Assembly: GCA_947095585.1 (NCBI GenBank)
Contig: OX352761.1
Coordinates: 50,394,019-50,458,018, forward strand
Direction: 5' to 3'
Source of the DNA: Nephrocerus scutellatus
Lineage: Eukaryota; Arthropoda; Insecta; Diptera; Pipunculidae
Length of the DNA stretch: 64,000 bases
Part shown: positions 8,381 through 49,620 of the stretch, one piece after another
Layout: each line of letters opens with the position of its first letter
How positions within the stretch are numbered: position 1 is the first letter of the stretch
The notes under the pieces: generated by a model
Told to the model about the DNA's origin: nothing
Seen by the model: only the letters and a program-made list of their open reading frames with translations
Databases searched by the model: none
Translations under genes and position numbers: made by a program

Positions 8381-10930
8381 TTAAAGCTTTTCCAGAAGTC
8401 ACGCAGAATTCAATCGGAACTTCCGAAATTAAACACAATGTGAGGCATCGGCTAGAAACTACCGGACCACCGGTTGCCTGCAAAACTCGTCGTCTGGCTC
8501 CGGACAAGCTCAACATCGCGAAGGCGGAATTTGAGAAAATGATGGAATTAGGTATTTGTAGACCTAGTAAAAGTTCGTGGTCTAGCCCTTTACACTTGGT
8601 GAAGAAAAAGAATGGTGAATGGCGACCTTGCGGAGACTACCGAGCTCTCAATAGAGTTACTACTCCATATCGTTATCCCATTCCTCACCTTCAAGATTTT
8701 GTATACCAATTGGAGGGTTGTACTTTATTCTCCACCTTAGATCTTGTCCATGCTTACCATCAAATTCCCATCGAACCTTCCGATATTCCGAAAACAGCCA
8801 TTTCAACTCCTTTTGGTCTGTTTAGTTTCGTAAAATGGCCTTTGGACTTCGAAACGCGACACAATCTTTCCAACGTTTGATGCATTCCGTTCTGTTGGGA
8901 CTTAACTTTTGTTTCGTGTACTTGGATTATGTCCTGGTAGCTTCAAAAAACTTTACAGAGCATATGGAGCACTTAAAAATTATTTTTCAAAGATTCTCCG
9001 AACACAGTTTAATCATTAACTTTGATAAATGTGTTTTTGCTTCTGAGAAAATTTCTTTTTTGGGACATTCGGTTACTGCACAAGGCATTTTGCCTTCTAA
9101 AGAGCGAATTAATGTTATTAAGATGATCGAACGCCCTATTCATGTCAAAGAGTTAAAACGTTTTCTTGGCATAATAAACTTTTATAGACGTTTTATACCA
9201 AATGCTGCCGAGGATCAAATTTTACTGAACGATTTTTTAAAGGGATACAAGAAAAATAGTAAGATTTCTATTAATTGGTCTGCTCCAGCTATTGAGGCTT
9301 TTGAAAAATGCAAAGAGAAATTTTGTCAAGCTACTCTGTTGTTTCACCCAAATATTTCGGCACCTTTAGCTATTATGGTTGACGCTTCTGACTCTGCACT
9401 AGGAGCTGTGGTACAGCAATTTGTGTCTGATACCTGGTCGCCCCTTAGTTTTTTTTCGGTCCGTCTCAACGAAGCACAAAAGAGATACAGCGCTTATGAT
9501 CGCGAACTTTTGGCCGCATATTCCGGTATCAAGCATTTTCGATACCTGCTAGAAGGTAAAAAGTTCACACTATTTACGAATCACAAACCTCTTGTATTCG
9601 CTTTTCGACAGAATTTGGATAAAGCATCTCCACGCCAGTTTACACATTTGGATTTCATCAGCCAATTTACAACGGATATACGGCATGTTTCAGGCATCGA
9701 TAATGTGGTCGCAGACGCGCTCTCTCGTATTAAACAAATTTCATTTCCCGAAAGCATTGATTATTCAGCTATAGCGGATGCGCAGACTGACGATGTCGAA
9801 TTGCGTGAAATTTTAACTTCCAGTTCATCATTAAAATTGAAACAATTTCCGGTCTCTTTCGGGTCCAATAAATTCATCTACTGCGATACTTCTTCAGACC
9901 CTCCAAGACCTTTTATCCCAAGAAGTTTTCGACAAAGCGTTTTCGACTCTTTCCATGAACTGTCTCATCCAGGTATCAAAGCTTCAGTTCGATTATTAAC
10001 CAAAAATGTTGTGTGGCCTTCCATTCATAAGGATGCTAGGATCATGGCGAAGAGCTGTGTTCCTTGTCAAAATCCAAAGTTTCTCGACACACGAAATCTC
10101 CCCTTAGTTTCTATAAATTATCTTCAGAACGCTTCTCCGAGATTCATCGTTGGACCGTTACCTGTTTGTGAGGATCAACGATACTGTGTTACACTGATCG
10201 ACAGGTTTACTCGTTGGGCTGAGGCAATTCCGGCCCCGGACATTACAACGGCCACCGTCGCCTAGTCTATTTATTCAGTTTGGATCGCTCGTTTTGGTGT
10301 TCCAGTATCCATTATAACGGATCAGGGAGCCCAATTCGAATCACAAATCTTCTCCGAACTTCCATCACTTTTAGGTTTCGAAAGGAAAAGAACTACTAGT
10401 TACAATCCGAAGTGTAACGGCATGATTTAACGATGGCATCGTATCATGAAGTCTGCCATTATGTGCCAAGACTCTTCAATCAGATTTTGCTAGAGATTTT
10501 AAAAAACATTTTAATGAAGTTAAACCAGTTCCAGCTTCCAGCCATAATGTTGGCAAAGTTTTTATTAGCAAAGACTTAAACCAGTCTTCACATGTTTTCC
10601 TCAGAACGGACGCTTTACGTAAGTCTCTACAACCTCCTTATATCGGACCTCATCTAGTAATTGGTCGGTCGGACAAGTCATTTATTGTTGAAGTTAATGG
10701 CAAACGCACCAAAGTTTCAATTGATCGGTTAAAACCCTGTTATCAAATTTTTGAATGGAATTTAGATCATCGTAATTCTCACCAGCTTCCATCCTCTCCT
10801 GACATCACGAATCGGCCTATCGTGAAATCCAAAAAATCTGTTACTTTAAGTTGCACCCTCCAGCAATTTCACCCAATTTGCGAGGCCATACATCGACTCG
10901 CACAGGAAGAGTTTCCAGAACCCCGGCTCG
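8290..10930 (+). pseudogene. pol: Element B RT-RNase H-integrase, inactivated
   Basis: RT starts with [21 protein letters not shown], then shifts frame near 8,835. The catalytic box reads FVYLDYVLVA, so YLDD has lost its second Asp. RNase H (DASDSALGAVVQQ at about 9,385, with VADALSR near 9,710) and the integrase zinc region (HELSHPG ... CVPCQ) follow. The integrase core has a stop at 10,263, TDQGAQF at about 10,320, and a TAA exactly where the third catalytic residue (Glu) is expected, at about 10,428. A deletion near 10,485 then removes the core's end. The C-terminal HVFLRTDALRK and GPHLVIGRSDK motifs are typical of the lineage. Confidence 0.85.
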
Positions 10931-24480: not shown

Positions 24481-24779
24481 CCAAGGTTCCGCTACAGAAA
24501 AAAGTCTTTGTTTTGATTTTTTTGTTTTCCTTTATTTTTAATCTAATTTATAATTTTTATATTTTGTAACAATTCAATCTACGATACTTTATTTAAATTA
24601 GAATATACAATACTTTTACTTAAATTTTTAATCACCACTTTTATACCGATGGTCGTCGTAACCCTGCAGCGTATTTCCCGTGAAGTTTTGATTAGTTGGA
24701 TAGGACGGGGAAGGGGGTTTTCCTATATTAACTGCGCTTTCTTTCTGGCGTGATTTGTTTATGTCAAAGCGAATTATGA
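24481..24779. other. AT-rich spacer before the satellite arrays
   Basis: No gene is seen. A TATAAAAG motif occurs on the minus strand near 24,640, but nothing else supports an LTR here. Confidence 0.3.
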
Positions 24780-26640
24780 CTTAAGCTAGAGAATCCCTTA
24801 CCGTGGTTCGGGGGAAATTCTCGACTTGTAAAAACTAAACGTAGATGTACGCGGCTAAACCAGTGTAACTTTGTGGAGAGGCGTCACCTCTACCTCTAAA
24901 GAGAAAGACGATTTAAGCCAGAGAATCCCTTACCGTGGGTCGGGGAAAATTATCGACTTGTAACAGCTAAACGTATGTGTACGCGGCTAAACCAATGTAA
25001 CTTGCGGAGAGGCGTCACCTCTACCCCTAAAGAGAAAGACGATTTAGGCCAGAGTCCCTTACCGTGGGTCAGGGGAAATGCTCGACTTGTAACAGCTAAA
25101 CGTATGTGTACGCGGCTAACCAATGTTACTTGTGGAGAGGCGTCACCTCTACCTCTAAAGAGAAATACGATTCAAGCCAGAGAATTCCTTACCGTGGGTC
25201 GGGGGAAATTCTCTACTTCTAACAGCTAAACAGTATGTGTACGCTGCTAAATCAATGTAACTTGTGGAGAGGCATCACCTCTACCTCTAAAGAGAAATAC
25301 GATTTAAGCCAGATAATCCCTTACCGTGGGTCGGGGGAAATTCTCGACTTGTAACAGCTAAACGTATGTGTACGCGGCTAAACCAATGTAACTTGCGGAG
25401 AGGCGTCACCTCTACCCCTAAAGAGAAATAAGATTTAAGCCAGAGTCCCTTACCGTGGGTCGGGGGAAATCCTCGACCTGTAACAGCTAAACGTATGTGT
25501 ACGCGGCTAAACCAATGTAACTTGTGGAGAGGCGTCACCTCTACCCCTAAAGAGAAATACGATTTAAGCCAGAGTCCCTTACCGTGGGTCGGGGAAATGC
25601 TCGACCTGTAACAGCTAAACGTATGTGTACGCGGCTAAACCAATGTAACTTGTGGAGAGGCGTCACCTCTACCCCTAAAGAGAAATACGATTCAAACCAG
25701 AGAATCCCTTACCGTGAGTCGGGGGAAATTCTCGACTAGTAACAGCTTAACGCATGTGTACGTAGCTAAACCAATGTAACTTGCGGAGAGGCGTCACCTC
25801 TACCTCTAAAGAGAAAGACGATTTAAGCCAGAGAATCCCTTACCGTGGGTCGGGGGAAATTATCGACTTGTAACAGCTAAACGTATGTGTACGCGGCTAA
25901 ACCAATGTAACTTGCGGAGAGGCGTCACCTCTACCCCTAAAGAGAAAGACGATTTAGGCCAGAGTCCCTTACCGTGGGTCGGGGGAAATGCTCGACTTGT
26001 AACACCTAAACGTATGTGTACGCGGCTAAACCAATGTAACTTGTGGAGAGGCATCACCTCTACCTCTAAAGAGAAAGACGATTTAAGCCAGAGAATCCCT
26101 TACCGTGGGTCGGGGGAAATTCTCGACTTGTAACAGCTAAACGTATGTGTACGCGGCTAAACCAATTTAACTTGCGGAGAGGCGTCACCTCTACCCCTAA
26201 AGAGAAATACGATTTAGGCCAGAGTCCTTACCGTGGGTCGGGGGAAATGCTCGACTTGTAACAGCTAAACGTATGTGTACGCGGCTAAACCAATGTAACT
26301 TGTGGAGAGGCGTCACCTCTACCCCTAAAGAGAAATACGATTCAAACCAAAGAATACCTTACCGTGGGTCGGGGGAAATTCTCGACTTGTAACAGCTTAA
26401 CGCATGTGTACACAGCTAAACCAATTTAACTTGTGGAGAGGTGTCACCTCTACCCCTAAACAGAAATACTATTTAAGCCAGAGAATCCCTTACCGTGGGT
26501 CGCGGGAAATTCTCGACTTGTAACAGTTAAAACCAATGTAACTTGTGGAGAGGTGTCGCCTCTACCCCTAAAAAGAAATACGATTTAAGCCAGAGAATCC
26601 CTTACCGTGGGTCGGGGGTAATTCTCGACTTGTAAATAGC
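24780..26640 (+). repeat. 131-bp satellite array 1, about 14 units
   Basis: The consensus unit runs GATTTAAGCCAGAGAATCCC, TTACCGTGGGTCGGGGGAAA, TTCTCGACTTGTAACAGCTA, AACGTATGTGTACGCGGCTA, AACCAATGTAACTTGTGGAG, AGGCGTCACCTCTACCCCTA, AAGAGAAATAC (131 bp). Units differ by point changes and a few-base deletions. Open frames in it merely read through the repeat. Confidence 0.9.
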
Positions 26641-26683
26641 TAAACTACGTTATAAGTAAAATAGTGGAATATCCTATAGCCAG

Positions 26684-27082
26684 TGTTCCGATTTCTATCC
26701 ACTTTAAATAAATTGATGGCCGACAAGGCCGACAACCATGTTTAATACAATAATTATGTATATAAAATGTATAATGCACTCGCGGCCTTAGAATCTAAGC
26801 CACCTATTGTAAAGTAACAAAAATAACACAACACTTGTTTGAGTCTGTGAATTGATTGGTATATACCATTGTTTCACTCACTTCCTTTTTGCATTTGAAA
26901 CTAGTTAAGTGGATTGATCTTATCTTAAAATATTAATACATGCTATCAACCACATATATTGTTAATTCTTAATAAGGTAAAAGTATAATTTGAATCCATG
27001 TGTGTGTGTTTTTCTTGGGAAATTATAAAAGTTTTTAATTGCAATTAAAATTTCTAATTGTTGTCTCTCCGCGGGTCTCGTA
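26684..27082 (+). repeat. BEL/Pao-type LTR start, copy 1
   Basis: Begins TGTTCCGATTTCTATCCACT and runs to GTTGTCTCTCCGCGGGTCTC. It matches 29,034-29,435, and with a ~100-bp gap matches 60,470-60,775, where the same sequence follows a BEL/Pao pol and therefore is an LTR. Confidence 0.7.
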
Positions 27083-27094
27083 GGTAGGTAGGTA

Positions 27095-27150
27095 ATTGTG
27101 AAAGTGTTCGACGCTATCGACAACAGCTAGCAATTCCCTCCGCGGCACGT
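27095..27150 (-). repeat. Ty3 RNase H scrap between LTR piece and array 2
   Basis: A ~55-bp match to 23,921-23,975 (GTGAAAGTGTTCGACGCTAT, then CAACAGCTAGCAATTCCCT), the RNase H remnant of the minus-strand Ty3 fragment. It shows that array 2 and the pol fragment once shared a context like that of array 1. Confidence 0.6.
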
Positions 27151-28990
27151 AGAAATACGATTCAAGCCAGAGAATCCCTTACCGTGGGTCGGGGGAAATT
27201 CTCGACTTGTAAACAGCTTAACGTATATGTACGCGGCTAAACCAATGTAACTTGTGGAGAGGCGTCACCTCTACCCCTAAAGAGAAATACGATTCAAGCC
27301 AGAGAATCCCTTACCGAGGGTCGGGGGAAAATCTCGACTTGTAACAGCTAAACGTATGTGTACGCGGCTAAACCAATGTTACTTGTGGAGAGGCGTCACC
27401 TGTACCTCTAAAGAGAAATACGATTTAAGCCAGAGAATCCCTTACCGTGGGTCGGGGGAAATTCTCGACTTGTAACAGCTAAACCAATGTAACTTGCGGA
27501 GAGGCGTCACCTCTACCCCTAAAGAGAAATAAGATTTAAGCCAGAGTCCCTTACCGTGGGTCGGGGGAAATTCTCGACTTGTAAACAGCTTAACGTATAT
27601 GTACGCGGCTAAACCAATGTAACTTGTGGAGAGGCGTCACCTCTACCCCTAAAGAGAAATACGATTCAAGCCAGAGAATCCCTTACCGAGGGTCGGGGGA
27701 AAATCTCGACCTGTAATAGCTAAACGTATGTGTACGCGGCTAAACCAATGTAACTTGTGGAGAGGCGTCACCTCTACTCTAAAGAGAAATACGATTTAAG
27801 CCAGAGTCGCTTACCGTGGGTCGGGGGAAATGCTCGACCTGTAACAGCTAAACGTATGTGTACGTGGCTAAACCAATGTAACTTGTGAAGAGGCGTCACC
27901 TCTACCCCTAAAGAGAAATACGATTCAAACCAGAGAATCCCTTACCGTGAGTCGGGGGAAATTCTCGACTAGTAACAGCTTAACGCATGTGTACGCAGCT
28001 AAACCAATGTAACTTGCGGAGAGGCGTCACCTCTACCTCTAAAGAGAAAGACGATTTAAGCCAGAGAATCCCTTACCGTGGGTCGGGGGAAATTATCGAC
28101 TTGTAACAGCTAAACGTATGTGTACGCGGCTAAACCAATGTAACTTGCGGAGAGGCGTCACCTCTACCCCTAAAGAGAAAGACGATTTAGGCCAGAGTCC
28201 CTTACCTTGGTTCGGGGGAAATGCTCGACTTGTAACAGCTAAACGTATGTGTACGCGGCTAAACCAATGTAACTTGTGGAGAGGCATCACCTCTACCTCT
28301 AAAGAGAAAGACGATTTAAGCCAGAGAATCCCTTACCGTGGGTCGGGGGAAATTCTCGACTTGTAACAGCTAAACATATGTGTACGCGGCTAAACCAATG
28401 TAACTTGCGGAGAGGCGTCACCTCTACCCCTAAAGAGAAATACGATTTAGGCCAGAGTCCTTACCGTGGGTCGGGGGAAATGCTCGACTTGTAACAGCTA
28501 AACGTATGTGTACGCGGCTAAACCAATGTAACTTGTGGAGAGGCGTCACCTCTACCCCTAAAGAGAAATACGATTCAAACCAAAGAATCCCTTACCGTGG
28601 GTCGGGGGAAACTCTCGACTTGTAACAGCTTAACGCATGTGTACACAGCTAAACCAATTTAACTTGTGGTGAGGTGTCACCTCTACCCCTAAACAGAAAT
28701 ACGATTTAAGCCAGAGAATCCCTTACCGTGGGTCGCGGGAAATTCTCGACTTGTAACAGCTAAAACCAATGTAACTTGTGGAGAGGTGTCGCCTCTACCC
28801 CTAAAAAGAAATACGATTTAAGCCAGAGTCCCTTACCGTGGGTCGGGGGAAATGCTCGATCTGTAACAGCTAAACGTATGTGTACGCGGCTAAACCAATG
28901 TAACTTGTGGAGAGGCGTCACCTCTACCTCTAAAGAGAAATAAGATTCAAACCAGAGAATCCCTTACCGAGGGATCGACTTGTAAATAGC
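27150..28990 (+). repeat. 131-bp satellite array 2, about 14 units
   Basis: Same unit as array 1. The order of diagnostic variants (for example the GCATCACCTCTACCTC unit and the CACAGCTAAACC unit) is also the same, offset by about 2.2-2.35 kb. The whole array-plus-LTR block was therefore duplicated rather than each array expanding independently. Confidence 0.9.
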
Positions 28991-29700: not shown

Positions 29701-29880
29701 GTGTTATCAATTAGCTGCTTAAAAATTTGCTATGTTGCTTTGACTGGAATAATTAGAATGGCAAATGATTCCCACATAATGTGATGAAAGTTTGTTGCAC
29801 ACAGATGGTGCTGGGGAAGCATAGGTATTTTAGGTAATAATTTTACTAGAAATTGGTTTGAGTGTTTGATGTGTGTATGT
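29701..29880. other. Unassigned sequence left of the ULP element
   Basis: No coding or repeat signature. Together with 40,080-40,216 it forms a ~320-bp segment absent from the paralogous locus at 54,832, into which the 10.2-kb retrotransposon inserted. Confidence 0.4.
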
Positions 29881-31858
29881 TGTAACGAGGTTTTCCCAGC
29901 CGGGGTAGAACTCAGTGTGACCAGGGTTCCTTCTATTAGGGTCGTTACAATAAAAAGAATTTGTTTTTAGTTGGGAATGGAATTCAATCGTTCTTTATTT
30001 GTTCTTCGCTTAATCTGTACACTTAAAATTATCGTTTGTTTAAAGCTATATATTATTTTACTGTATAAGTTTCAATTATGATTAAAGGAGACCGACGTAT
30101 CTCCAGGCGGGATGATAGTCTGTTCTCGCGTAGAGCGTGGATTTGAAGGCAAGGACTTCGCTCTTGAACCTCCAATAGTGTGGATAATGTCTAGCGTTAG
30201 GCGTGGGCGTGAAGGCAAGGACTTCGCTCTTGAACCTCCAATCTAGCGTACAGCGTGGGTAATGTCTAGCGTAAAGCGTGGGCGTGAAGGCAAGGACTTC
30301 GCTCTTGAACCTCCAATCTAGCGTACAGCGTGGGTAATGTCTAGCGTAAAGCGTGGGCGTGAAGGCAAGGACTTCGCTCTTGAACCTCCAATCTAGCGTA
30401 CAGCGTGGGTAATGTCTAGCGTAAAGCGTGGGCGTGAAGGCAAGGACTTCGCTCTTGAACCTCCAATCTAGCGTAAAGCGTGGATAATGTCTAGCGTAAA
30501 GCGTGGGCGTGAAGGCAAGGACTTCGCTCTTGAACCTCCAATCTAGCGTACAGCGTGGGTAATGTCTAGCGTAAAGCGTGGGCGTGAAGGCAAGGACTTC
30601 GCTCTTGAACCTCCAATCGTTAGGATAACTACTGGCGTAAAGTGTAAAGTGAAGGCAAGGACTTCGCTCTTGAACCATTCACTCTGACTTGTTGCCGGGA
30701 AGAGGGATTTCTAGGAAAGAAAACCGATTGTTAGGACTGCTGGCCTTTTATAGTCCTCCATCGAGTGTAGAAATCCCGTTGTTGCAACGATCGTGAAATC
30801 CGCTAACTCGCCTGATGGTGTGCTGTTGTTGTTGTTTCCTTTGATGTGATATGGTTGTTGTTGTTTTGTCCGGCCGGTCAGTATTGCTGCGCTCGGCGGT
30901 CTATTGGTTCGTGATCCCGTTGGTGCAACGATAGGGAAATCCGCTACGTCACATGATCGGTGGGACTTGGTAGTGTTGTTGTTGCCTCTTTGATGTTTGT
31001 TAGTTCCAAGATTCCGTTGATGCAACGATAGGGAAATCCGCTACGTCACATGATCGGTGGGACTTGGTAGTGTTGTTGTTGCCTCTTTGATGTTTGTTAG
31101 TTCCAAGATCCCGTTGATGCAAAATTAGGGAACTCCGCTACATCGCATGATCGGTGTAGTGTTGTTGTTGGTTTGCCTCGAAAATGCGTGCTGTCGTACA
31201 TTGTGTGTTGTTTGTTGTTGTTTTTTTGGTTGTCTAATGATGCTGCAGACTTCTGATTGTCCGCTATCATATTTTGCATGCTGTTTGTTGTTGCCTTTTA
31301 CGTGGGTCTGCGCCGTCTTACACTGCATGCTTTGTTGTTGTTGTTTTCCTTGACTTGTCTGATGCAAAATGTATGCATGTTGTTTGTTGTTGTTTTGAAT
31401 ATTGGTCGGGTATTCTGTGTCTGTGGTGCTGTATGCCTGCTGTTGTTGTTTTCTCCAATGATGCTGTGTGCTTCTGCATGTATTGTGAGTCACGAGCGGG
31501 GTATCCCTAGTCTGTGTGGTCTGGTGCTGTATGTGTGTCGTCATTCTCTCACTCAGCTGCTTGATGATGGCGTGCATTGGTTGTGCGTGGTGAATTTACG
31601 CGTTGTGAGAGGAACGACAGAACGAAATATAGAGAACCTGTGTATCATAAGCCGAGAGTAATTTCGGCGATTAATTTACCACTTAAAAGAGTGGGAAACA
31701 TGTTGCTAGATTTAAGAGCATTATGGTAAACGTTTCTTTGTAATGTGTATGCAAGTTTTTTTTTTATTAAATTCAAAAGAAAGTGTTGTTTACAAAAAGA
31801 TGGTTGCGTACCAAAAATAATGTGTGGAAAAAATTGTGTGGCAAATTTTTCCTTCACA
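29881..31858 (-). repeat. 3' LTR of the ULP retrotransposon
   Basis: 1,978 bp. Minus-strand ends are TGTGAAGGAA and CCTCGTTACA. Reading in transcription order it contains a CAA-rich, CAACAACAA-dotted U3, three 96-bp direct repeats (about 30,919-31,140), TATAAAAGG at 30,743-30,751, a 75-bp tandem repeat (30,110-30,680) and AATAAA at 29,994-29,999. The tandem repeat lies between promoter and polyadenylation signal and so is probably part of R. Confidence 0.93.
30082..30678 (-). repeat. 75-bp tandem repeat forming a 198-codon reading frame in the LTR
   Basis: Units encode a 25-residue repeat (WRFKSEVLAFTPTLYARHYP then RCTLD), about six good copies with degenerate ends. The unit is a multiple of three with no stop, so the frame from ATG at 30,678 stays open for 198 codons. 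The identical array is at 38,300-38,896 in the other LTR. The ATG lies about 65 bases after the TATA box, so this is potentially the first ORF of the genomic RNA. No known domain; it may be a structural RNA or untranslated feature instead. Confidence 0.7.
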
Positions 31859-33170
31859 CCTCCCCCTTACTTCGACGGATGCTGATCTTTCCCTTCCTGG
31901 TGACTAGCACTCCAAGTCGGGTCTTGTCCTGCACATGGAAGAAGTGTATCCTTCGTAGTTCTCCCGCTTGTACTCTCGCCTTTGCCGTATCTATCTTGGC
32001 CTGGAGTTCATGGGATACGGTTTCGCTCATGGTCTCTTCTTTGTGCACTATGTCACTCCCTGTGAGTGACAGGACATCTTCCTGTCGTCGGGTCGTCGCG
32101 GTTTTTGGTGGGTTGTTCCTGTCTGGTCCGGGTTCGAGGAGGCCTGTCGGCGGGATGAAACTTCTTTCCCTCGGTTTGTTGTTGTGGCTGCCACTGCTAC
32201 TGCTGCTGCTACTACGGTTGCTGCTGTTGCTCCCACTACTGCTGCTGCTGCGGGTGCTGTTGCTACTACTGTCACTGCTGCTGCTACTGCTATCGTGTCT
32301 GCTGCGACTGCGGTAGCGGTGGCGAGTGCGGCGCGGAGTTTTTGGCCTGCTGCGGTTGACTCTTTCTCGGATGTTACAGTCTATGTCGTCATCGCCTAGT
32401 CCGAGATCTGGAAACTTAATTGCTGGGTCGGCGCTTCTTTGGATGAGGTTGGCAAGCATTCTCCGTTTCTTGCTGGCGCTGTCCGGCGACATCCTCTGGC
32501 CTGGCGAGTCGGGTCCTGCCAGTCCCCAGGTGAGGACTTTCTCCGCTGCTTCCAGTAAAAATGCGCCACAATCCACCCCATTTCGCTGTTGTGGCATCTC
32601 CATGTGTCGGCCTGGGTATGAGTCCTGGAACTCTGCCCACGTCCAGTGATGTCCCTTCGATAGGTGCTGTTGCACGACGTAGCCGCGAATTACCTCAATG
32701 GCCTCGTTCCTTGGTGTTTTGGCCCACGAATCGTACACATCAATGGTGGCACGGTGAGGTCTCCCCGGGTTGGTAACCACCACGAGGTACCAATGGTTGC
32801 CGTCGCAAATGGGCACTAAAACCAGGTCTTTCCTGATGAGGTCCTTGTGCCGGTCCCACCTGCTCACTAGTGCGTGTCGCCTAATGGCCGTTGACTCGGG
32901 GCTCTCCTGCTGATCTGGCTGGTACTGCTGCATCCGTGAGAAGAGGAATGTGCTGCAGATCTTGATTCTCTCCCGGTGGCTTTCCTCCATCCTTCTCTCT
33001 AACCACCTGAGTCCGACACCCACCAGAACGTCGTTGAAGTATACCCCTTTCTTTAGTCGGCAGTAGTCGGCCATTCGCACATCGATGCCACCTGGCCCCG
33101 GAGGAAAACTTCCGATCACCTGGTTTAACTCGGCGTCTCCGGATGCGTGAATCGTGTTTGTGGCTTCCAT
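31854..33170 (-). CDS. ULP1/SENP-like C48 cysteine protease, third ORF of the retrotransposon
   Basis: 438 codons. Residues ~40-215 match the Ulp1/SENP (peptidase C48) fold: YFNDVLVGVGLRWL (the family's W-L-N-D substrate-side helix), KDLVLVPICDGNHWYLVVV with catalytic His126, TIDVYDSW with Asp147, and MPQQRNGVDCGAFLL with Gln195 (oxyanion hole) and Cys201. Known members remove SUMO or related modifiers from proteins. After the domain comes an acidic segment, an Arg/Ser-rich stretch (~272-295), a long poly-Ser tract (~293-335) and a basic C-terminus. It sits 340 bp after pol on the same strand, in the position of env. The last codons are the polypurine tract and the TGA lies in the LTR. Start: first ATG of the frame, though the frame is open further upstream. 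Confidence 0.88.
   Translation of the reverse strand: MEATNTIHASGDAELNQVIGSFPPGPGGIDVRMADYCRLKKGVYFNDVLVGVGLRWLERRMEESHRERIKICSTFLFSRMQQYQPDQQESPESTAIRRHALVSRWDRHKDLIRKDLVLVPICDGNHWYLVVVTNPGRPHRATIDVYDSWAKTPRNEAIEVIRGYVVQQHLSKGHHWTWAEFQDSYPGRHMEMPQQRNGVDCGAFLLEAAEKVLTWGLAGPDSPGQRMSPDSASKKRRMLANLIQRSADPAIKFPDLGLGDDDIDCNIRERVNRSRPKTPRRTRHRYRSRSRHDSSSSSSDSSSNSTRSSSSSGSNSSNRSSSSSSSGSHNNKPRERSFIPPTGLLEPGPDRNNPPKTATTRRQEDVLSLTGSDIVHKEETMSETVSHELQAKIDTAKARVQAGELRRIHFFHVQDKTRLGVLVTRKGKISIRRSKGEV
31859..31868 (-). promoter_or_regulatory. Polypurine tract of the ULP retrotransposon
   Basis: Minus-strand AAGGGGGAGG immediately precedes the LTR start TGTGAAGG. It is translated as part of the third ORF. 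Confidence 0.85.
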
Positions 33171-33510: not shown

Positions 33511-36500
33511 TCAGTGTGTTGCTGACGTATTGCTCTGGATTTCGATGATGATGCTATTGATCGCTGTCGCATTTTCGTCATGCCCCTGACTTCTCTCTCC
33601 CGCTTGTGTTCTTTTGTGTGGTCGTCTTGAGGTTTGTTGCCGATTGTTTTGTCTTGTGGTTTTTAATGGAACGATGTTCTGTTCATGGTTCCCCGTCCCA
33701 GACCGCCAGTTGCGCGGGTGATTATACCATTCGTGCTGATGTTTGCTGCCGTGTTGTATCACTGTGGGCTCGTTAGAGTGTTGGGTGTGGGGTGTCATTG
33801 TTATTGCGATGCGGTTTGTCTTCTCTGGTTCGGGTGGGGAGTTTCCGTGGAAGTCTTTCAACTCATTGACGTGGGCTGTGCGCTCCTTGTTTTGCCCATG
33901 TTTCCTTAGCCTTACTATGACAGGTGAGACGAAGCTCATCACTAAGTATGGCCCGTCGTATCGTGGTGCTAGTTTACTAGCGAACCCTTCCACTGCCTTT
34001 GATAGGTGGTGCTGTTTGACCAGCACCAGATTCCCGATCTCGGGCTTCCAAGGACGTCGTCTGAGGTTGTAGTGGCGGGCTTGATCCTTCGCAGCTCGTT
34101 CTAAGTTTCGTCGCACGATCTCGAAGATCTCGTTCATCTGGGTCTTTCGGTCCTCTGGTTTTTTACCTAGTGTACCCGTCCCAGGAGTGATCTCGTCGTA
34201 CAGCGTGTTCGGGAGGCGGGGTTCTCGGCCCTGTGTCAGGAATGCCGGGCTGTATCCTGTTGAGTCCTGTACGCTTGAATTTATTGCTAGCATAACTTCG
34301 GGCAGCTTCTCGTCCCAAGTGCGTTGTTGCGTTCCCGCTAGTTGTGCAATTATTGTTTTAGCGGTGCGGTTGACCCTTTCAGTGGGATTTTCTTGGGGGG
34401 TATATGGCGCTGTAAATTGCTGGCGTATGCCCATGGTCTCCAAGAATCGACGAAATGCCCTGCTACTGAATTGCGCCCCGTTGTCTGTTATCAGGATCTT
34501 GGGTACGCCGTATCGGGCCAGTATACGTTCGCGAAAAGCCCGTTGAACTCCTTCGGTCGTTGCCCTTCGCATTGGAATCAGTTCGACCCATTTCGAAAAC
34601 CGATCAAAGAAAACCAGTAACATGGTATTTCCGTGTTTCGACCTAGGGAGTGGCCCAACGAAGTCACTACACAATGTGGCCCATGGTTCGTCGGCCACCT
34701 GGGTAAGCATTTTACCTGCTGCTTGCTGTTGGCTGGGTTTGTAGCACTGGCAGCTTTCACATTTCTTTACATATTGACGAATGTCACGAAACATACCCGG
34801 CCAATAGTAGCGACCGCATATTCTCGCCGTAGTCTTCCGGATCCCCAGGTGCCCTGCTGATGCGCTGTCATGGTTTTCCTGCAGTACCCGACTTCGAAGG
34901 TTACTCGGCACACACAGTTTCCACGGTGTTGAGTCCTCGTCTCCGGCTCGATGCCCTATGTGTCGATACAGCTGCTGGCCTTCGATCACGTAGTCGGGGA
35001 ATTTGGCTGGGTTCTCTGTGACCTGCTGGACCTTCTTTTGCAGCCAGTGGCACTTCTGTTGCTCTACGTGTTCCTCGGAGGTTGCCATCAGTGTTTCTTG
35101 CGGTTGTCTTGATAGAGCGTCTGCAACGACGTTGAGTTTGCCCCGCCTGTACTGTATGTCGTATGTATACTGCTGTAGTTCTAGCGCCCACCGTGCGATC
35201 CGGCCGGACGGGCTGGATATCGAGTTTAGCCATTTGAGCGAGAGGTGGTCTGTTATTACTGTAAACCTATACCCTTCGATGTATGCCCGCATCTTCCTTA
35301 TTCCCCATACGATGGCCAGGCATTCCTTTTCGGTCGGCGAGTAGTTCTTCTCTGCGGGGTTTAGGTGTCGACTGGCATACGCTATGACCCGTTCACTGTC
35401 GTCTATCTCCTGGGTGAGGACTGCTCCTAAACCATAATCGCTAGCATCCGTCTGGAGTGTGAACTTCTTAGAGAAATCGGGGCAGGCCAGGATTGGGGCC
35501 TCGGTAAGTTTAACTTTGAGTGCTTCGAATGCTTGCTGCTGCTCTTCTCCCCACTTCCAGTGCTTGCCTTTCTTGAGGAGGCTCGTCATCGGTCGCACGG
35601 TCTCGGCGAAATCTGGAACAAATCGGCGGTACCATGAAGCGATGCCCAGGTACCGGCGTACCTCTCGTACATTACTCGGGGGTTGGAGCTCTTTGATGGC
35701 CGCTATTTTGTCGGGGTCAGTGTGTATGCCTTTGTTACTGACCACGTGTCCCAAGTACCGTATTTCCGTTTTGCAGAACTCACATTTTTCCGGGTTAATT
35801 TTTAGGTTAGCCATCTGCAATCGCCTGAACACCTTGCGCAGATTTCCCATGTGTTCGTCAAACGTTCTCCCGATGACGACTATGTCGTCAAGATATGCAA
35901 ACGCATGGGGCTCCATCTCTGGTCCGATGACTCGATCGAGCGCTCGCTGGAAGGTCGCAGGGGCCGAATGTAGCCCAAACGGCATCACGCGCCATTGGAA
36001 CAAGCCACGGCCGGGTACCGTGAAGGCGGTGTACTGCTTACTCTTCTCCTCCATGGGGATTTGCCAATATCCATTTCTCAGGTCCAGACTACTGATGAAT
36101 TTGGCACCGCGAAGCTTTTCTAGAATGTGTTGGATTCGTGGCAGGGGGTATGCGTCGGGCACTGATCGTGCATTCAGTTCTCGATAGTCGATACATAGTC
36201 TCCATTTGCCTGTCTTCTTTCGCACGAGAACTATGGGCGCGCTGTGGGGGCTATGTGAAGGCTCGATACATCCTTTTTCCAACAACTCGTCGATCTCTGT
36301 ATTTATTATTTCCTGCATGGCTGGATTACGGGGGAAGTAGCGCTGCTTTATTGGGCGTTCGTCGTGCATGATGATTCTGTGTTCCGTGATGTTGGAAACG
36401 GCGGGTAGTTGATCAAATTTCTTGAATTCTTGTTGCAGAAACGCTGAAAGCTGTTCCTGTTCTGTCCGTGGTGTTTCTTGCGTGGTGGTGCATTGTCGGA

Positions 36501-36956
36501 TGTGTTCTGCGGGCGTTGTTCTGTGCTGTAATTTTATGGTCTGGCCACCGCAGCTTAGACGGGCCTCCACCCGTGACAAAAAGTCCAGACCTAAGATTAC
36601 TTCATCCATTGCATCTGGGAGAATCAAGAATGGAAACTGTATCTCCCTATTACCTATCTCGACATCTAGCTGTAGGGCCTCTCGGATCAACTTGGGTGTC
36701 CCTTCGGCCATCCGTACGGTCACATCCATGGGTAGACTCTTTGTTGTCCCCCTTTTGTCTTCTGCAAAACGTTCGCTCACAAAACTCCTAGTAGCCCCTG
36801 TGTCAATCGTAGCTTTTACCGGCGTCCCTCCTAGGGTGATGGTGGCGAGGATCCGGTTGGAATCGTAGGCAAGGAAGTTTACTGGGCCCGGGGTGTCGGT
36901 CTCGGGGTTTCCGTCGCACCACGGTTTCGGCGGTCCCCTCGCTCGTTTCCCGGTCG
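33511..36956 (-). CDS. pol: Pol polyprotein of the ULP retrotransposon
   Basis: Protease, RT, RNase H and integrase in one open frame of over 1,100 codons, read by -1 frameshift from gag. Counting from the ATG at 37,014 (frame open but probably not used as a start), the features are: retropepsin ATIDTGATRSFV at ~69-80; RT with RLCIDYRELN and AFAYLDDIVV at ~371-380 (YLDD intact); RNase H TDAS, E562, TDH and VADALSR (~522-636); integrase zinc H715/H722/C752/C755; and core Asp784, Asp844, Glu879. A C-terminal SH3/chromo-like region with LAPRYDGPYLV and a long hydrophilic tail follows. No stop, frameshift or lost catalytic residue was seen. Confidence 0.93.
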
Positions 36957-38000
36957 TTCGACGCGTTTCCGGCAGCATTCCACGGTCCGAACATTTCGAA
37001 GGCCGCAGTCCCAACAGAAGATGGTTTGGGGGTTACGACAGTCCCGCCTCATGTGTCCGTCCTGGCCACATCGCAGGCAAGCCGTCCTTACATTTATTCG
37101 TGCTTCCATATTTTGTGCTACCATGAAATTCCTTTCGGGTTGTCTGGGTCGGGGCGAGGGTTTGATAGGTTCTGCTGCACCAGCGATGCCTTCGAAATCT
37201 TCTGCCAGACTGATGAGTTCGTGGAGGTCTCTAAAATCCTTCCTCCGGATGTAGTACTGGTACTCTTGGCGACAGTTTCGGAAGATCCTTTCGACCTGTT
37301 GTGTACCGGTGTAGTTTGCGTGCCTCATGAGGTTCTGCATTATGATTACGAAATCCTTGAAGCGCTCCTTTGGCTTTTGCTGGCGTTGACGAATTTCGTC
37401 TTCTAGATGTTCCCAGTACCTGGAGGGCAGGAAGAACTGTAGAAAATCTGTCGTGAAGGCGTTCCAGGTCTCCCATTTTCGGTTGTTGTTTCGGAACCAT
37501 AATAACGCGCGGTCACGGAGTAGTTCCGGCATGGTTCTGGGTAGAAGGTCCCTGTTTAAACAGTAGGCATCCGCAAGTTCTTCTAGCCTTTCGATGAATA
37601 GGAGAGGCTCCTTACCACCATCGTACTTCACCGACCACTTCCTCACCTGGTCCATTATTTGAGCGTACGACGTAACTGTCGTGTCCGTCCTGCTTCGCGT
37701 TGGAACCACTTCCGGTGGTGCCGGAGAGATTGCCCTGATGGTTGCCTTTGGGTCGTCGCGTACCGTGGCTTCGGATGGATTCAAGGTTATAAGGGGCGCT
37801 TGTGATGGGCTGCGTCTATGTTTCTCCTCGAGCTCACTTAGGCGTATCTCGTCCTCCGACGTAACGTCTCGTCCCGAAACAAAGCTGGAAAACCTTTTCC
37901 TTAAATCTTCCACTGCGCCGTTGCTGTCGATTCGGAACTCGCTCATGTAGCTCTTCAGCTCCTCTTTCGACAGTGTATAAATCCAACTGGTCTTAACCAT
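36879..38000 (-). CDS. gag: Gag of the ULP retrotransposon, SAP-like N-terminus
   Basis: 373 codons, starting 77 bases after the primer site. Residues ~8-42 (LSKEELKSYMSEFRIDSNGA and on to LRKRFSSFV) resemble a SAP helix-extension-helix motif, known from nucleic-acid-binding proteins. Residues ~115-275 are the capsid-type domain (LLFIERLEELADAY, ALLWFRNN, KERFKDFVIIMQNLM). A canonical CCHC knuckle C308-X2-C311-X4-H316-X4-C321 is followed by a second cysteine cluster (C329, C332) and an Arg-rich tail. A GGGAAAC heptamer in the tail, within the overlap with pol, allows -1 shifting. Confidence 0.92.
   Translation of the reverse strand: MVKTSWIYTLSKEELKSYMSEFRIDSNGAVEDLRKRFSSFVSGRDVTSEDEIRLSELEEKHRRSPSQAPLITLNPSEATVRDDPKATIRAISPAPPEVVPTRSRTDTTVTSYAQIMDQVRKWSVKYDGGKEPLLFIERLEELADAYCLNRDLLPRTMPELLRDRALLWFRNNNRKWETWNAFTTDFLQFFLPSRYWEHLEDEIRQRQQKPKERFKDFVIIMQNLMRHANYTGTQQVERIFRNCRQEYQYYIRRKDFRDLHELISLAEDFEGIAGAAEPIKPSPRPRQPERNFMVAQNMEARINVRTACLRCGQDGHMRRDCRNPQTIFCWDCGLRNVRTVECCRKRVERPGNERGDRRNRGATETPRPTPRAQ
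36945..36951 (-). promoter_or_regulatory. -1 frameshift slippery heptamer GGGAAAC
   Basis: In the gag frame the codons are G GGA AAC, the canonical X XXY YYZ form. Shifting back one base enters exactly the pol frame (codons for K/N then R-A-R-G-P-P). GC-rich sequence follows and could provide the stimulatory structure, which I have not folded. Confidence 0.75.
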
Positions 38001-38076: not shown

Positions 38077-38096
38077 GAGTCCCTGCTCGGGCGCCA
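38077..38096 (-). promoter_or_regulatory. Primer-binding site, tRNA-Lys type
   Basis: Minus strand TGGCGCCCGAGCAGGGACTC starts two bases after the 5' LTR end. It matches the complement of the tRNA-Lys(UUU) 3' end except for one substitution in the first 18 bases. Confidence 0.82.
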
Positions 38097-38098
38097 AT

Positions 38099-40075
38099 TG
38101 TAACGAGGTTTTCCCAGCCGGGGTAGAACTCAGTGTGACCAGGGTTCCTTCTATTAGGGTCGTTACAATAAAAAGAATTTGTTTTTAGTTGGGAATGGAA
38201 TTCAATCGTTCTTTATTTGTTCTTCGCTTAATCTGTACACTTAAAATTATCGTTTGTTTAAAGCTATATATTATTTTACTGTATAAGTTTCAATTATGAT
38301 TAAAGGAGACCGACGTATCTCCAGGCGGGATGATAGTCTGTTCTCGCGTAGAGCGTGGATTTGAAGGCAAGGACTTCGCTCTTGAACCTCCAATAGTGTG
38401 GATAATGTCTAGCGTTAGGCGTGGGCGTGAAGGCAAGGACTTCGCTCTTGAACCTCCAATCTAGCGTACAGCGTGGGTAATGTCTAGCGTAAAGCGTGGG
38501 CGTGAAGGCAAGGACTTCGCTCTTGAACCTCCAATCTAGCGTACAGCGTGGGTAATGTCTAGCGTAAAGCGTGGGCGTGAAGGCAAGGACTTCGCTCTTG
38601 AACCTCCAATCTAGCGTACAGCGTGGGTAATGTCTAGCGTAAAGCGTGGGCGTGAAGGCAAGGACTTCGCTCTTGAACCTCCAATCTAGCGTAAAGCGTG
38701 GATAATGTCTAGCGTAAAGCGTGGGCGTGAAGGCAAGGACTTCGCTCTTGAACCTCCAATCTAGCGTACAGCGTGGGTAATGTCTAGCGTAAAGCGTGGG
38801 CGTGAAGGCAAGGACTTCGCTCTTGAACCTCCAATCGTTAGGATAACTACTGGCGTAAAGTGTAAAGTGAAGGCAAGGACTTCGCTCTTGAACCATTCAC
38901 TCTGACTTGTTGCCGGGAAGAGGGATTTCTAGGAAAGAAAACCGATTGTTAGGACTGCTGGCCTTTTATAGTCCTCCATCGAGTGTAGAAATCCCGTTGT
39001 TGCAACGATCGTGAAATCCGCTAACTCGCCTGATGGTGTGCTGTTGTTGTTGTTTCCTTTGATGTGATATGGTTGTTGTTGTTTTGTCCGGCCGGTCAGT
39101 ATTGCTGCGCTCGGCGGTCTATTGGTTCGTGATCCCGTTGGTGCAACGATAGGGAAATCCGCTACGTCACATGATCGGTGGGACTTGGTAGTGTTGTTGT
39201 TGCCTCTTTGATGTTTGTTAGTTCCAAGATTCCGTTGATGCAACGATAGGGAAATCCGCTACGTCACATGATCGGTGGGACTTGGTAGTGTTGTTGTTGC
39301 CTCTTTGATGTTTGTTAGTTCCAAGATCCCGTTGATGCAAAATTAGGGAACTCCGCTACATCGCATGATCGGTGTAGTGTTGTTGTTGGTTTGCCTCGAA
39401 AATGCGTGCTGTCGTACATTGTGTGTTGTTTGTTGTTGTTTTTTTGGTTGTCTAATGATGCTGCAGACTTCTGATTGTCCGCTATCATATTTTGCATGCT
39501 GTTTGTTGTTGCCTTTTACGTGGGTCTGCGCCGTCTTACACTGCATGCTTTGTTGTTGTTGTTTTCCTTGACTTGTCTGATGCAAAATGTATGCATGTTG
39601 TTTGTTGTTGTTTTGAATATTGGTCGGGTATTCTGTGTCTGTGGTGCTGTATGCCTGCTGTTGTTGTTTTCTCCAATGATGCTGTGTGCTTCTGCATGTA
39701 TTGTGAGTCACGAGCGGGGTATCCCTAGTCTGTGTGGTCTGGTGCTGTATGTGTGTCGTCATTCTCTCACTCAGCTGCTTGATGATGGCGTGCATTGGTT
39801 GTGCGTGGTGAATTTACGCGTTGTGAGAGGAACGACAGAACGAAATATAGAGAACCTGTGTATCATAAGCCGAGAGTAATTTCGGCGATTAATTTACCAC
39901 TTAAAAGAGTGGGAAACATGTTGCTAGATTTAAGAGCATTATGGTAAACGTTTCTTTGTAATGTGTATGCAAGTTTTTTTTTATTAAATTCAAAAGAAAG
40001 TGTTGTTTACAAAAAGATGGTTGCGTACCAAAAATAATGTGTGGAAAAAATTGTGTGGCAAATTTTTCCTTCACA
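38099..40075 (-). repeat. 5' LTR of the ULP retrotransposon
   Basis: 1,977 bp, matching the other LTR throughout. TATAAAAGG lies at 38,962-38,970, about 1.1 kb into the LTR, so the expected transcript starts near 38,935 and reads through the 75-bp repeats before the primer site at 38,077-38,096. Confidence 0.93.
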
Positions 40076-40079
40076 ATGT

Positions 40080-42319: not shown

Positions 42320-45233
42320 TTAACCATCATCCTTCAAGAAGTTGTTAACGGCTAATTTGAACGCCTGCAGATTATAAGATTCTGGAAACACGTGTTCGAC
42401 CAATTGATTCCACATCGAAGAGACTCTCGGAAAAAATGAGGATTTAAAGTGTTGGGTTCTACATGAAAAAAGTTTTAAGGCAAATCTATGTTGATTGCAC
42501 CTTAAACGAGTGTTTACGTTACTGAGAAAAGGCCCAGGAACTAGAGAACGGGTTTCTAAAGAACATTTACCGTTGTAAAATTTATAGAAAACAGATAAAG
42601 CTCCTACATTTCGTCTGTGCTCCAAAGTATCAAGAGACGAAGTAATGGTTACATCATTTATCAAACGGATAACTCTATTCTGAACACCATCAAGATGAAC
42701 CAAATGCGATCTTGGAGCACCACCCCACACATATGAATTAAATTCTAAAATTGGTCTAACATAAGATTTATATAATCTTAACACTTCAGAGGGAGTGAAG
42801 TAGAAGTTACAACGTCTTATGAAGCCTAAACATTGGCTAGCTCTTTTTGAAATTTCATAAATATGTTCTTTCCAGGAAAGATCACTTGATACTTTTAAAC
42901 CTAACAACTTAAGTGAATCAGATCTCGCAATAGAGGTACCATTAATAACAGGAGGAACATAATGTTGAGTTGTCTTCTGAGAGAAAAGGCAAGACTGGAA
43001 TTTATTTGGGTTAAATTCTACTCTGTTAGAAATGCCCCAATCAAGAATGATTTGAATGTTAGACAGAATAGTCAAATTCATTAATTCACGCGAACTATTC
43101 AAGCGAGAATTGCATTATTTTTGATTGTCAAACTTAATGGAGGCCGATAGTGTTGTATCATCAGCAAATGAATGGATATCACAGGTTGTAGAGGACAACA
43201 GGTCGTTGAAATATATCAAGAAGAGCGTGGGAGACAAGGATGATCCTTGAGGCACGCCAGCATTGATCCCATGTGAATCTGAAGATATACCATTTAATAC
43301 AACTTTTATTTTACGGTTCCATAAATAATTCTCAATCCATGTAATGAGAGAGGAGTGTAAATTCAGCGCACGAATCTTATTAATAAGACAATCATGCCAT
43401 ACTCTATCAAAAGCTTTAGCAATATCTAAGGAAACAACGCTTGATTCACCTAGGTTTTCAATGCTTCGCTCCAAACAATGAGTCATGCACGTCATTAGTT
43501 CGCCTGAAGATCGATTTTTACGAAATCCATACTGCACATCGGATAAAAGAACATTCGAATCCAGATAGTTCATTAGTCTGAAATTAACGATAGATTCCAT
43601 TACCTTCGATAGAACCGACAACAAAGCAATAGGTCGGTAGTTCGTAGGTGCCGATTTATCACCTTTTTTCGGGTTGAATATTAGCTATTTTCCAAATTGA
43701 CGGAAAAACACCCGTCTTCATTGAGAGATGAAACAATTTGCTAAGCGGTTTTGCCAAAGTAAGATGACAACTTTTCAATACTAATGGCGGAATACCGTCG
43801 GGGCCAGTCGCTTTATTGGGGTCAAGTTCTTTCAGAATCTTTGAAACAACCCGTTTCCGAAAATAGATTTTAGACATACCTGGGCCTAGATTTGGGAGAA
43901 TAGGGGGGCTTTGATTAGTTAAAGGAAGAGTAGACGCACCAGCGAAATGAGAAGCTAAGAGATTAGCTTTCTCAATATTAGTTCTATAATGAATACCATT
44001 ATGAAATAATGATAGAATAGACGAAGTATTGTCTGCAAAGTTTCTTTTAACCAATGCAGCAAACGACCAAAAGCTTCGACTGTTTGAATCAGAATCCAAA
44101 ATTTTTCGCATGCTATCTCGAATCTTAAGGTCATATATTATTTTAGACCTTTTCAATATAGCGTTTGATCTGTTTCTAGCAATTCGAAACTTTACAAGGT
44201 TTTCTTCAGAAGTGCAATTAACGTAGTCCAAATGGGCTGCTTTTTTACACGCGACTGCTGACCTGCAATGTGTAAACCATTTATTTTTATGAGTATTTTT
44301 CTTTTTAAATGAAGAAGGAATGCAATTTTTCATTCCTAGCAAAATGGTTGACGTGATAAGTTGTGATGCTTCATCAGCATTATTGCTGGAAAAACAGGTT
44401 GACCAATCAAATGAGCTATAAAATTGGTTCAGGAGCTCCCAGTTAGCATTTTTATAGTGCCAGAGTAGCCTTTTACTTGTAGTCTCTATAAGGGCTGGTG
44501 ATATTGAAAATTTGGCTACTATCAAAGCATGGTCAGAAAGACCTAATGGAGCAGATACATCAATTGAATATTTATCAGGCATAGTTGTAAGAAATAAATC
44601 TAAAAGGTGAGGTGATTGACCAGTAGTATCGGGATACCTAGTTGGCTTATCAACGAGTTGGGTGAAAAGATTAACATTTGAAAATAGTTCAGCTGATTCA
44701 CCTGATCGATCTCTACCATTCAAATAGGTCAACCATGAATCATTGTGGACATTAAAATCACCCAAGACTACCAATTCTGATGTTGGTGATGATTGGTAAA
44801 TCTTGTCTATTGTGTCTGATAAGTAATTAAACTCAATATTAGTGTCATCAGGTGACAAATTAGGACTACGATAAAGGGAACATATAAATATCGAATGGTT
44901 TGAAATTACAATTTCAATCCATATCGTATTGAACATTGGATTACTGTTTGGAATATTAAAATTAGGTACACTAAAACTGATGTCTTCTCGTATAAATAAA
45001 ATAACCCCACGATGAGGAACCAAACAGTCGACACGAGAATACCCCTGACATTGAAAATCATTTGGGGTACCCATATAAGATGCCTGCGTTTCACATAAAC
45101 TTAGAACCGCAGGTTTATTCGCGTCAAGATGTGCTACGATCGAGTTGAAATTACTTTTAATGCCGCGAATATTTGTGAAATGAATTTCAAAATATGAGTT
45201 CATTTTACAAATTAAAAATACCGAACCCGTCAA
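42320..45233 (-). pseudogene. Non-LTR retrotransposon ORF2 (APE endonuclease-RT)
   Basis: Endonuclease (45,200-44,500): SLCETQ, FNTIWIEIV, VVLGDFNVHND and GLSDHALIV. The linker KATGPDGIPPLVLK leads to an RT with YGFRKNRSS, SLDIAKAFDRVWHD, NAGVPQGSSLSP and SFADDTTLSAS, so the catalytic FADD is intact. The C-terminal part has KLLGLKVSSDLSW and a CX..H region. Lesions: a frame change near 43,640 within the NIQP..KKGD motif, and one in-frame TAA near 43,113. Few lesions make this a relatively young copy. The family is APE-type LINE (Jockey-group-like); the clade is uncertain. Confidence 0.87.
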
Positions 45234-48280: not shown

Positions 48281-49620
48281 ATGGATAGTTCCAGTAGGAG
48301 AACAGGCGCTGTTCCAAAACCTCTGCCTGATTTTGGGTCTGGGATCCAAACTAGGCAGAAAACAAAAAAACGTTTCAAATCCCAAAATAGCTCCACATCG
48401 TGTGGTGACTTCGGCATTGACCAACAACTTCATACGTCGGCAGTATGTCCAAATCCGTTTTCGGAAGAAAATCAGCTGATCAACAAAATTCAAGAAGCGG
48501 TTTCGGAGGTAATTCAAAAGGACCAACTGGCTTTGGGTCATTATTCACAAAAAAATTAGAAAGAGTTAGTTGCAGCCTGACGGAGCAGATAGAGATGCTA
48601 GCTCGGAAAGTAGATACCCTCGAGATGCAGCAATGCGATGGAAAAAAGAGTGCTCCTCATAGGTCTACGCCAATACACCGGTTTGAGGAGGGAGAACAAA
48701 TGCCTGGTAACCATCGACCAAACCCTTCTCTTGACCAGCACAATCAGCCAGACGAGCAAATGACTTATTTAAACGATGAACTGCTACGAGTGCAAAAATG
48801 TGATCTCCAGAAGTGGAACATAAAGTTCGATGGCACGAAAAGGACAATGCCGGTCGACAGCTTTGTCTTTCGCATCGAAACGATGCAGCGCATACTTAAC
48901 GCCAGCGAAAGTCAGGTGTTTAACCAGTTCGCCTTCCTCCTGACCGGTGTAGCTGAACGTTGGTATTGGCAATTCCTGGAGGAGCGCGCAAATGATCCAT
49001 TCCTAAACTACCATGATCTTAAGAGGGAATTATTGCGGCAGTTTAGGGCATCCGACTCTGACCATGAGATCATGCGGGAGATCATGGACAGGAAGCAAAT
49101 GCCAGGCGAGAGTTGTGACGACTTCTTTTCAAGCGTCAGGGCGATGGTGTTCCAAATGAAGAATAGATTGCCAGAGGGGGAACTAGTCACAATTCTCCGC
49201 CAGAACCTCCGAGAGAAAGTGGCAGAGCTGATCTTTGGGTGCTCTCTATTTTCTTTCGCTGATTTAGTGTCTGCCTGCCGCTGGGCAGAAAAGCTTTTCG
49301 GTGTCAGGGAAAACCGCTTTAAAGGTAGACCAATCAGCGAGCTCCAGACAACAGGAGACGAAGAATTTGACAGTGACAGAGGGGAATTGACGAATGAGCT
49401 AAGTGCCATTAAGACAAATTATCCACATAAAAAAAAAATTATATTAAAAATACAGACGATAGGAATGTAGTCCGTAATGATGTCCAAAACCAGTGTTCGT
49501 CTCATTTCCACTCCTTAGTGTGCTTCCAATGTGGTCAGTACAATGTTCCTGTTTTGTTGTGTCCGTCCTGTAGGACTAACCCGGAAAACTTGTTGAGGGG
49601 CGAAACATCCGGGGGTGCTC
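48281..49620 (+). pseudogene. gag: Element C gag
   Basis: Starts MDSSSRRTG at 48,281; the frame changes near 48,540. The capsid region in 48,445-49,470 has WNIKFDGTKR, VDSFVFRIETM, AERWYWQFLEE, DRKQMPGESCDDFF and ILRQNLREKV, clearly related to element A gag. After a stop at 49,468 a cysteine cluster CFQCGQYN..LLCPSC lies at about 49,529-49,575 in another frame. Compared with element A, this Gag is longer at its N-terminus and better preserved. Confidence 0.83.

Follow-up and report, generated by a model that had tools for sequence, protein, structure and literature searches.

Insect errantiviruses, which belong to the gypsy/gypsy clade of long terminal repeat (LTR) retrotransposons, carry a third open reading frame (ORF) downstream of pol, and orchid LTR elements have reportedly captured an N6-methyladenosine (m6A) demethylase. 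In errantiviruses ORF3 codes for an envelope protein of the baculovirus F type (PMC12992720; this and the other papers cited by PMC number are drawn on in excerpts), and bdelloid rotifer LTR elements hold captured GDSL and DEDDy enzymes as ORF3, likewise in the third-ORF position (PMC5408684). Domains of the Ulp1 family are found in Ginger1 and Mutator DNA transposons, in Cryptons and in NeSL/Utopia non-LTR elements (PMC2836005, PMC3212892, PMC4640811). According to these excerpts, the C48 domain lies within the transposase or reverse transcriptase (RT) protein in Ginger1 and NeSL/Utopia and is an additional protein in some Cryptons, and none of these is an LTR retrotransposon. Here we analyse a 64,000-nt stretch of the Nephrocerus scutellatus genome (assembly GCA_947095585.1, OX352761.1:50,394,019-50,458,018, forward strand), called the window below, whose minus strand holds an LTR retrotransposon with the full set of usual parts, including LTRs, gag and pol, and with a C48 protease as its third ORF where errantiviruses have an envelope gene. 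A non-envelope enzyme gene thus sits between pol and the 3' LTR, as in the LTR elements with a captured enzyme as ORF3, although the bdelloid and orchid captures are other enzymes in other hosts. Our searches of the open-licence PMC literature turned up no C48-bearing LTR retrotransposon (subscription papers, preprints and Repbase notes lay outside the search). What appears to be new is the combination of C48 with an LTR retrotransposon, since C48 in other transposon classes and enzyme-capturing LTR elements are each already known.

The element invites comparison with the Osvaldo lineage, of which Ulysses is also a member. Its primer binding site, TGGCGCCCGAGCAGGGAC, is one base off what we take to be the tRNA-Lys3 primer site. 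Members of that lineage (Osvaldo, Isis and mosquito elements, described for Culex) have a tRNA-Lys-type primer site (PMC3286476). They also have LTRs of ~1-2 kb and mostly 4-bp target-site duplications, and these two features recur here. The likeness in LTR length and target duplication, and perhaps in the primer site, is a lead towards this lineage and not a classification. C48 is not mentioned for the lineage in the excerpts of PMC3286476 or PMC3630058, whereas here it forms the third ORF. The Isis element of D. buzzatii reportedly carries an env domain and an Isis-like element of Calliphora none (PMC3630058). D. melanogaster has seventeen lineages with env, every one of them in the gypsy/gypsy clade and none in osvaldo (PMC12992720).

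The element and its third open reading frame

The window element is a Ty3/gypsy-type (Metaviridae) LTR retrotransposon. Its pol has the domain order aspartyl protease (PR), RT, RNase H, integrase (IN) by Pfam, its LTRs run from TG to CA, and primer site, polypurine tract and target duplication are all present. The gag, pol and C48 ORFs share one orientation, with C48 between pol and the 3' LTR; ORF listing, Pfam and LTR comparison thus confirmed what an initial annotation, made from the letters of the window, had described as an intact ORF co-oriented with gag and pol inside one LTR pair. The two LTRs (1978 and 1977 bp) differ by 0 substitutions in 1977 aligned bases and by a single indel, in a T-run, so that the insertion is young. 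The parts of the element, with the evidence for each, are:

38099..40075, minus strand: 5' LTR, 1977 bp (LTR pair comparison)
38079..38096, minus strand: primer binding site TGGCGCCCGAGCAGGGAC (sequence motif)
36879..38000, minus strand: gag with zinc knuckle (Pfam: PF03732 above cut-off; PF00098 just below, 18.2 bits against a cut-off of 20.8)
33511..37014, minus strand: pol with aspartyl protease, RT, RNase H and integrase (Pfam)
31854..33170, minus strand: third ORF, predicted C48 protease of velo/SENP6-7 type (PF02902, E 5.9e-25; triad and Gln in 9/9; ratio of non-synonymous to synonymous substitution rates, dN/dS)
31859..31868, minus strand: polypurine tract, within the end of the C48 ORF (sequence)
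29881..31858, minus strand: 3' LTR, 1978 bp, containing a 75-bp tandem repeat (LTR pair comparison)
29877..29880, no strand: target-site duplication ATGT, left (sequence)
40076..40079, no strand: target-site duplication ATGT, right (sequence)

The third ORF matches PF02902 (Peptidase_C48) with 88.8 bits, where the cut-off is 20.7 (E 5.9e-25). This is its only Pfam match, and we rejected the possibility of an F-type envelope gene on that ground. The protein is laid out as a catalytic domain (~residues 22-260), an RS/serine-rich linker and a C-terminal module (~372-438). The catalytic His126, Asp147 and Cys201 and the oxyanion Gln195 are where the initial annotation had placed them. All four are unchanged in the 30 fetched family-A copies, among which the window copy itself figures as L002, and in nine aligned sequences from six families, each with a PF02902 match of its own, even as whole-protein identity to the window falls to 23%. 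A single-sequence structure prediction of the catalytic domain reached a predicted local distance difference test (pLDDT) score of only 32. The C-terminal module, the last 60-70 residues, is detectably common to families A/F and C (E 6.5e-5, where 1000 shuffles gave 0.18 at best); the comparison did no better than shuffles for family E and is not reported for B. Hydrophobic-acidic stretches were also seen in the N-terminal part of the C48 ORF in L045, L046, L053 and L054. Such stretches, for example IVLSSDEEED in L045 and L046 and AIILSSGDDES in L054, look like candidate SUMO-interacting motifs.

The ORF extends across the polypurine tract, which forms its last codons, and ends inside the 3' LTR, whose first bases supply the stop codon; in the other loci compared, the stop is likewise found either at the polypurine tract or where the LTR presumably begins. 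The ORF of 438 codons that had been annotated is present in the window, as a shorter version of the family-A protein: in 28 of the 29 other fetched copies (all but L016) an ATG lies in frame 18 codons ahead of the window's Met1, so that the usual product would be 456 residues long.

The protease gene across the genome

We searched the whole genome (613 Mb, 9 contigs) with the window C48 ORF. Of 1683 candidates, 96 places were scored; these gave at least 100 match rows, a few places being split in two. By hand count, 45 of the 57 full-length rows among the matches listed (start at or before residue 17, end at residue 438; window row included) are stop-free. A search with PF02902, in which the best 150 of 487 candidates were scored and all lay above the cut-off, brought out several further families. 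We call the families A (with the window, L040 and L042 as subgroups), B (L044), C (L045, L046), D (L051), E and F. Eight loci of 10 kb were fetched, five from the ORF search and three from the PF02902 search, and all eight have gag, pol and C48 in this order on one strand. Direct repeats at the LTR position are found in seven, L039 being the exception and L043 having them only as repeat-unit matches; in several of the eight, gag or pol frames are broken. L039 has two gag and two primer-site stretches within its 10 kb, which suggests nested or tandem element copies.

In families E and F, pol with a primer site adjoins C48 (L057 with L053, and L058 with L055). The 3' and 5' LTRs at the family F locus are 91% alike over 808 bases, and no LTR pair could be demonstrated for family E in the fetched loci. 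Five diverged families (A, B, C, E and F) therefore have C48 downstream of pol, with the motif TGGCGCCCGAGCAGGGAC present in fetched loci of all five, and with catalytic-domain identities to the window of ~30-46% in the other families with an intact triad. LTR pairs without substitution occur in three of them (the window for A, L044 for B and L045 for C), and LTRs of ~1-2 kb with a 4-bp target duplication in the window and L044. The SUMO-protease gene is, in other words, a stable third gene of diverged, recently mobile elements, and third ORFs of such elements should not automatically be labelled 'env'.

The same association is seen from the side of pol. When the best 40 of 21493 pol candidates, the nearest relatives of the window pol, were scored, 35 had a C48 match downstream on the same strand, 344-729 bases away by coordinates, some of these matches being truncated or frame-broken. 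A one-off insertion, which the initial annotation had named beforehand as the finding that would overturn its proposal, is excluded by these 35 places, by the number of match rows and by the five families.

Constraint on the catalytic domain was estimated as dN/dS by the Nei-Gojobori method, with intervals from codon bootstrap. In family A the ratio is 0.103 (0.05-0.16) for the window and L040 and 0.232 (0.14-0.35) for the window and L043, a partly degraded copy; it is 0.27 (0.15-0.44) for L032-L044 in family B, 0.183 (0.10-0.31) for L045-L046 in family C and 0.287 (0.20-0.45) for L053-L054 in family E. These five informative pairs from four families thus span 0.10-0.29, with every bootstrap upper limit below 0.46, and in the two pairs with both measured, pol gives similar values (0.093 for window-L040, 0.156 for L045-L046). 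Window-L042, at 0.15, is near saturation, and deeper pairs are saturated. The genome-wide search for gag-pol-C48 elements with dN/dS that had been proposed with the initial annotation has in this way upheld its suggestion of selection, the ratios being well below 1 and the catalytic residues invariant in family A. On the other side of the balance are two pairs too similar to inform, L039-L040 (0.888, with dS 0.012) and L041-L042 (0.294, interval 0-1.24; pol 0.598), and the C-terminal module, which is under weaker constraint in some within-family pairs (0.59 for window-L043, 0.07 for L045-L046).

Kinship and possible role of the protease

Searches of protein databases with the window ORF gave no homolog at E 0.001, and a nine-sequence profile gave a single match there, P0001, judged Ulp2-like and fungal. 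Against the PDB, the same profile scored 172 bits with SENP7, 103 with SENP1, 96 with SENP2, 81 with SENP5, 73 with Ulp2 (5lnb) and 59 with Ulp1 (1euv); SENP8 was a weak match, at 25-26 bits. Two genes of the host itself were taken into the comparison by sequence likeness, L031 as its likely Ulp1 and L065, near the end of C5, as its likely velo/Ulp2 gene. In 8/8 element domains tested, the best score fell to the likely host velo, the next to human SENP7, and then to host Ulp1 or P0001, while identity between element proteins and the likely host velo is 26-40%. The tree sets elements, velo and SENP7 apart from host Ulp1 and P0001 (support 94.5/84), and with the scores it led us to reject descent from Ulp1. 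Sequence comparison thus places the element protease nearest the velo/SENP6-7 (animal Ulp2-type) branch, and not nearest Ulp1/SENP1. Of the Ulp1/SENP type first assigned to it, the C48 family stands and the affinity shifts from Ulp1 to velo/SENP6-7. While velo and SENP6/SENP7 are its nearest sequences, alignments show an insertion within the catalytic domain of SENP7 or velo that has no counterpart in the element domains, and the element protein has an extra C-terminal module; we therefore call it SENP6-7-like, not an ortholog.

Some of these data qualify the assignment. SENP1, SENP2 and SENP5 score above the Ulp2 entry 5lnb, and P0001 groups with Ulp1 in the tree, so that the kinship is to animal SENP6-7/velo and not to Ulp2 enzymes at large. 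The tree, in which the elements form no single clade, groups velo and SENP7 with family B (47.5/57) and puts C/E outside them (87.3/76). Several captures are therefore possible, and a single capture is unproven. The third ORF is probably a captured animal Ulp2-type SUMO protease, and capture of a processed mRNA is suggested by the element domain lacking the stretch that separates the two velo halves. Unrooted trees of integrase and of C48 give the same family order, A, F, B, (C,E), and differ inside A at L043, some integrase rows being short; such agreement fits long co-inheritance plus some exchange.

SUMO is required in flies for piRNA-guided (PIWI-interacting RNA) silencing, and no animal LTR retrotransposon is known to us to carry a counter-defence gene, a point at which no search was aimed. 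Our reading of the third ORF, whose chances of being right or wrong we put as about equal, is that this C48 protease was likely captured from a velo/SENP6-7-type animal gene, has retained its catalytic residues under a low dN/dS across diverged families, and would de-SUMOylate silencing chromatin proteins. Its substrate would be SUMO or poly-SUMO on host chromatin proteins, in the nucleus, where it would work against SUMO-dependent silencing (in Drosophila, Panoramix and Su(var)2-10 are factors of this kind). By removing SUMO the element could escape host silencing, and by acting in trans the enzyme could still let copies without a catalytic part spread. In Drosophila ovarian somatic cells, Panx that lacks its four SUMO-target lysines can no longer silence and is rescued by a fused SUMO, and a cleavable fusion is cut by deSUMOylating enzymes (PMC13195609). 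SENP7 takes SUMO chains off KAP1, with HP1 apparently its chromatin adaptor (PMC4281951). By analogy, a SENP7-like enzyme on a retrotransposon would be well placed for reversing such silencing. That a whole animal LTR-retrotransposon lineage is armed with a captured Ulp2-type SUMO protease, as a trans counter-defence undoing SUMO-dependent (piRNA-guided) heterochromatin on its copies, is a tentative proposal that we would sooner doubt than affirm; if true, it would be a retrotransposon-encoded counter-defence. Because the gene is stable in diverged, recently mobile elements, a single small protein, compared with a catalytically dead version of it, would be enough to test directly whether retrotransposons resist SUMO-dependent silencing.

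Several observations tell against a functional anti-silencing enzyme. In yeast, nuclear-pore-tethered Ulp1 restricts Ty1 transcription, an effect of opposite sign (PMC8585004). In the window copy the usual start codon is absent, and its product may be somewhat shorter than usual, or scarce. As to the translation route, 340 bases separate pol from the C48 ORF, and inspection of seven loci by eye showed no splice site that they have in common, for which reason a splice acceptor at the window ORF start was rejected as a family feature. Furthermore, the remaining 5 of the 40 pol places (L060-L064) keep C48 remnants from which the stretch with Cys201 is gone, and in three of the five, pol is stop-free. 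L061 and L064 share an identical deletion junction on different chromosomes, so a catalytically empty derivative has spread. The C48 gene is thus general among the nearest pol relatives, yet dispensable for an individual copy, and its catalytic part is not needed in cis. Dispensability for single copies is as expected of a trans-acting factor, or of one that is useful rather than essential.

The multiplication of this derivative is also what favours a passenger gene, that is, captured host DNA carried without benefit. We find this scarcely credible given dN/dS of 0.10-0.29 in four families and a triad intact at the catalytic-domain identities seen between families, where such a reading is already contradicted. 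The protease might instead de-SUMOylate the element's own Gag or integrase for particle assembly or integration, as would suit a gene that adjoins gag and pol over five families and whose tree agrees with that of integrase in family order; the RS-rich linker and the SENP6-7 kinship weakly suggest nuclear chromatin substrates, and we hold the own-protein target to be unlikely. The resemblance of Ulp/SENP catalytic domains to adenoviral proteases (PMC4281951) recalls another idea of the initial annotation, a second polyprotein protease. It would cut Gag-Pol in the manner of the adenain-type enzymes of DNA viruses. This has become highly improbable because pol already holds an aspartyl protease, and the PDB matches are SENP/Ulp enzymes, with no adenoviral chain among the 22 matches listed. 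A deubiquitinase or deNEDDylase in place of a SUMO protease has a precedent within the family, SENP8, which works on Nedd8 and not SUMO (PMC4281951), and is nonetheless improbable here given how weakly SENP8 matches compared with SENP7.

Protease arrays and surroundings of the element

Family D differs in setting. At C2:56345532-56469152, where L051 and L059 were read, there are many C48 matches, all on one strand. The 8.8 kb read consist of tandem units of ~1.55 kb that are 97-99% alike, have open frames running across several C48 domains (among the frames listed, up to 1482 codons) and show no pol match. This is possibly a domesticated or satellite-like protease array. C48 matches also lie within very long open frames at C6:14435465 (1743 codons), C6:16507478 (1774) and C1:59913263 (900).

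Both LTRs of the window element contain a 75-bp tandem repeat of ~6 units (30124-30676 and 38342-38894), and internal repeats are also visible in the LTRs of other fetched loci. Scans of the window for tRNA genes and Rfam families gave no match. Adjoining the element are ~4.2 kb of satellite-like 131-bp tandem repeats (24766-28973). Elsewhere in the window we found the remains of another gypsy-like element (6836-10265, with one ORF for DUF7041 and another for RT/RNase H/integrase-zinc), a LINE-kind endonuclease ORF (43659-45233) and a further Retrotrans_gag ORF (48445-49470), and the whole looks like nested transposons.

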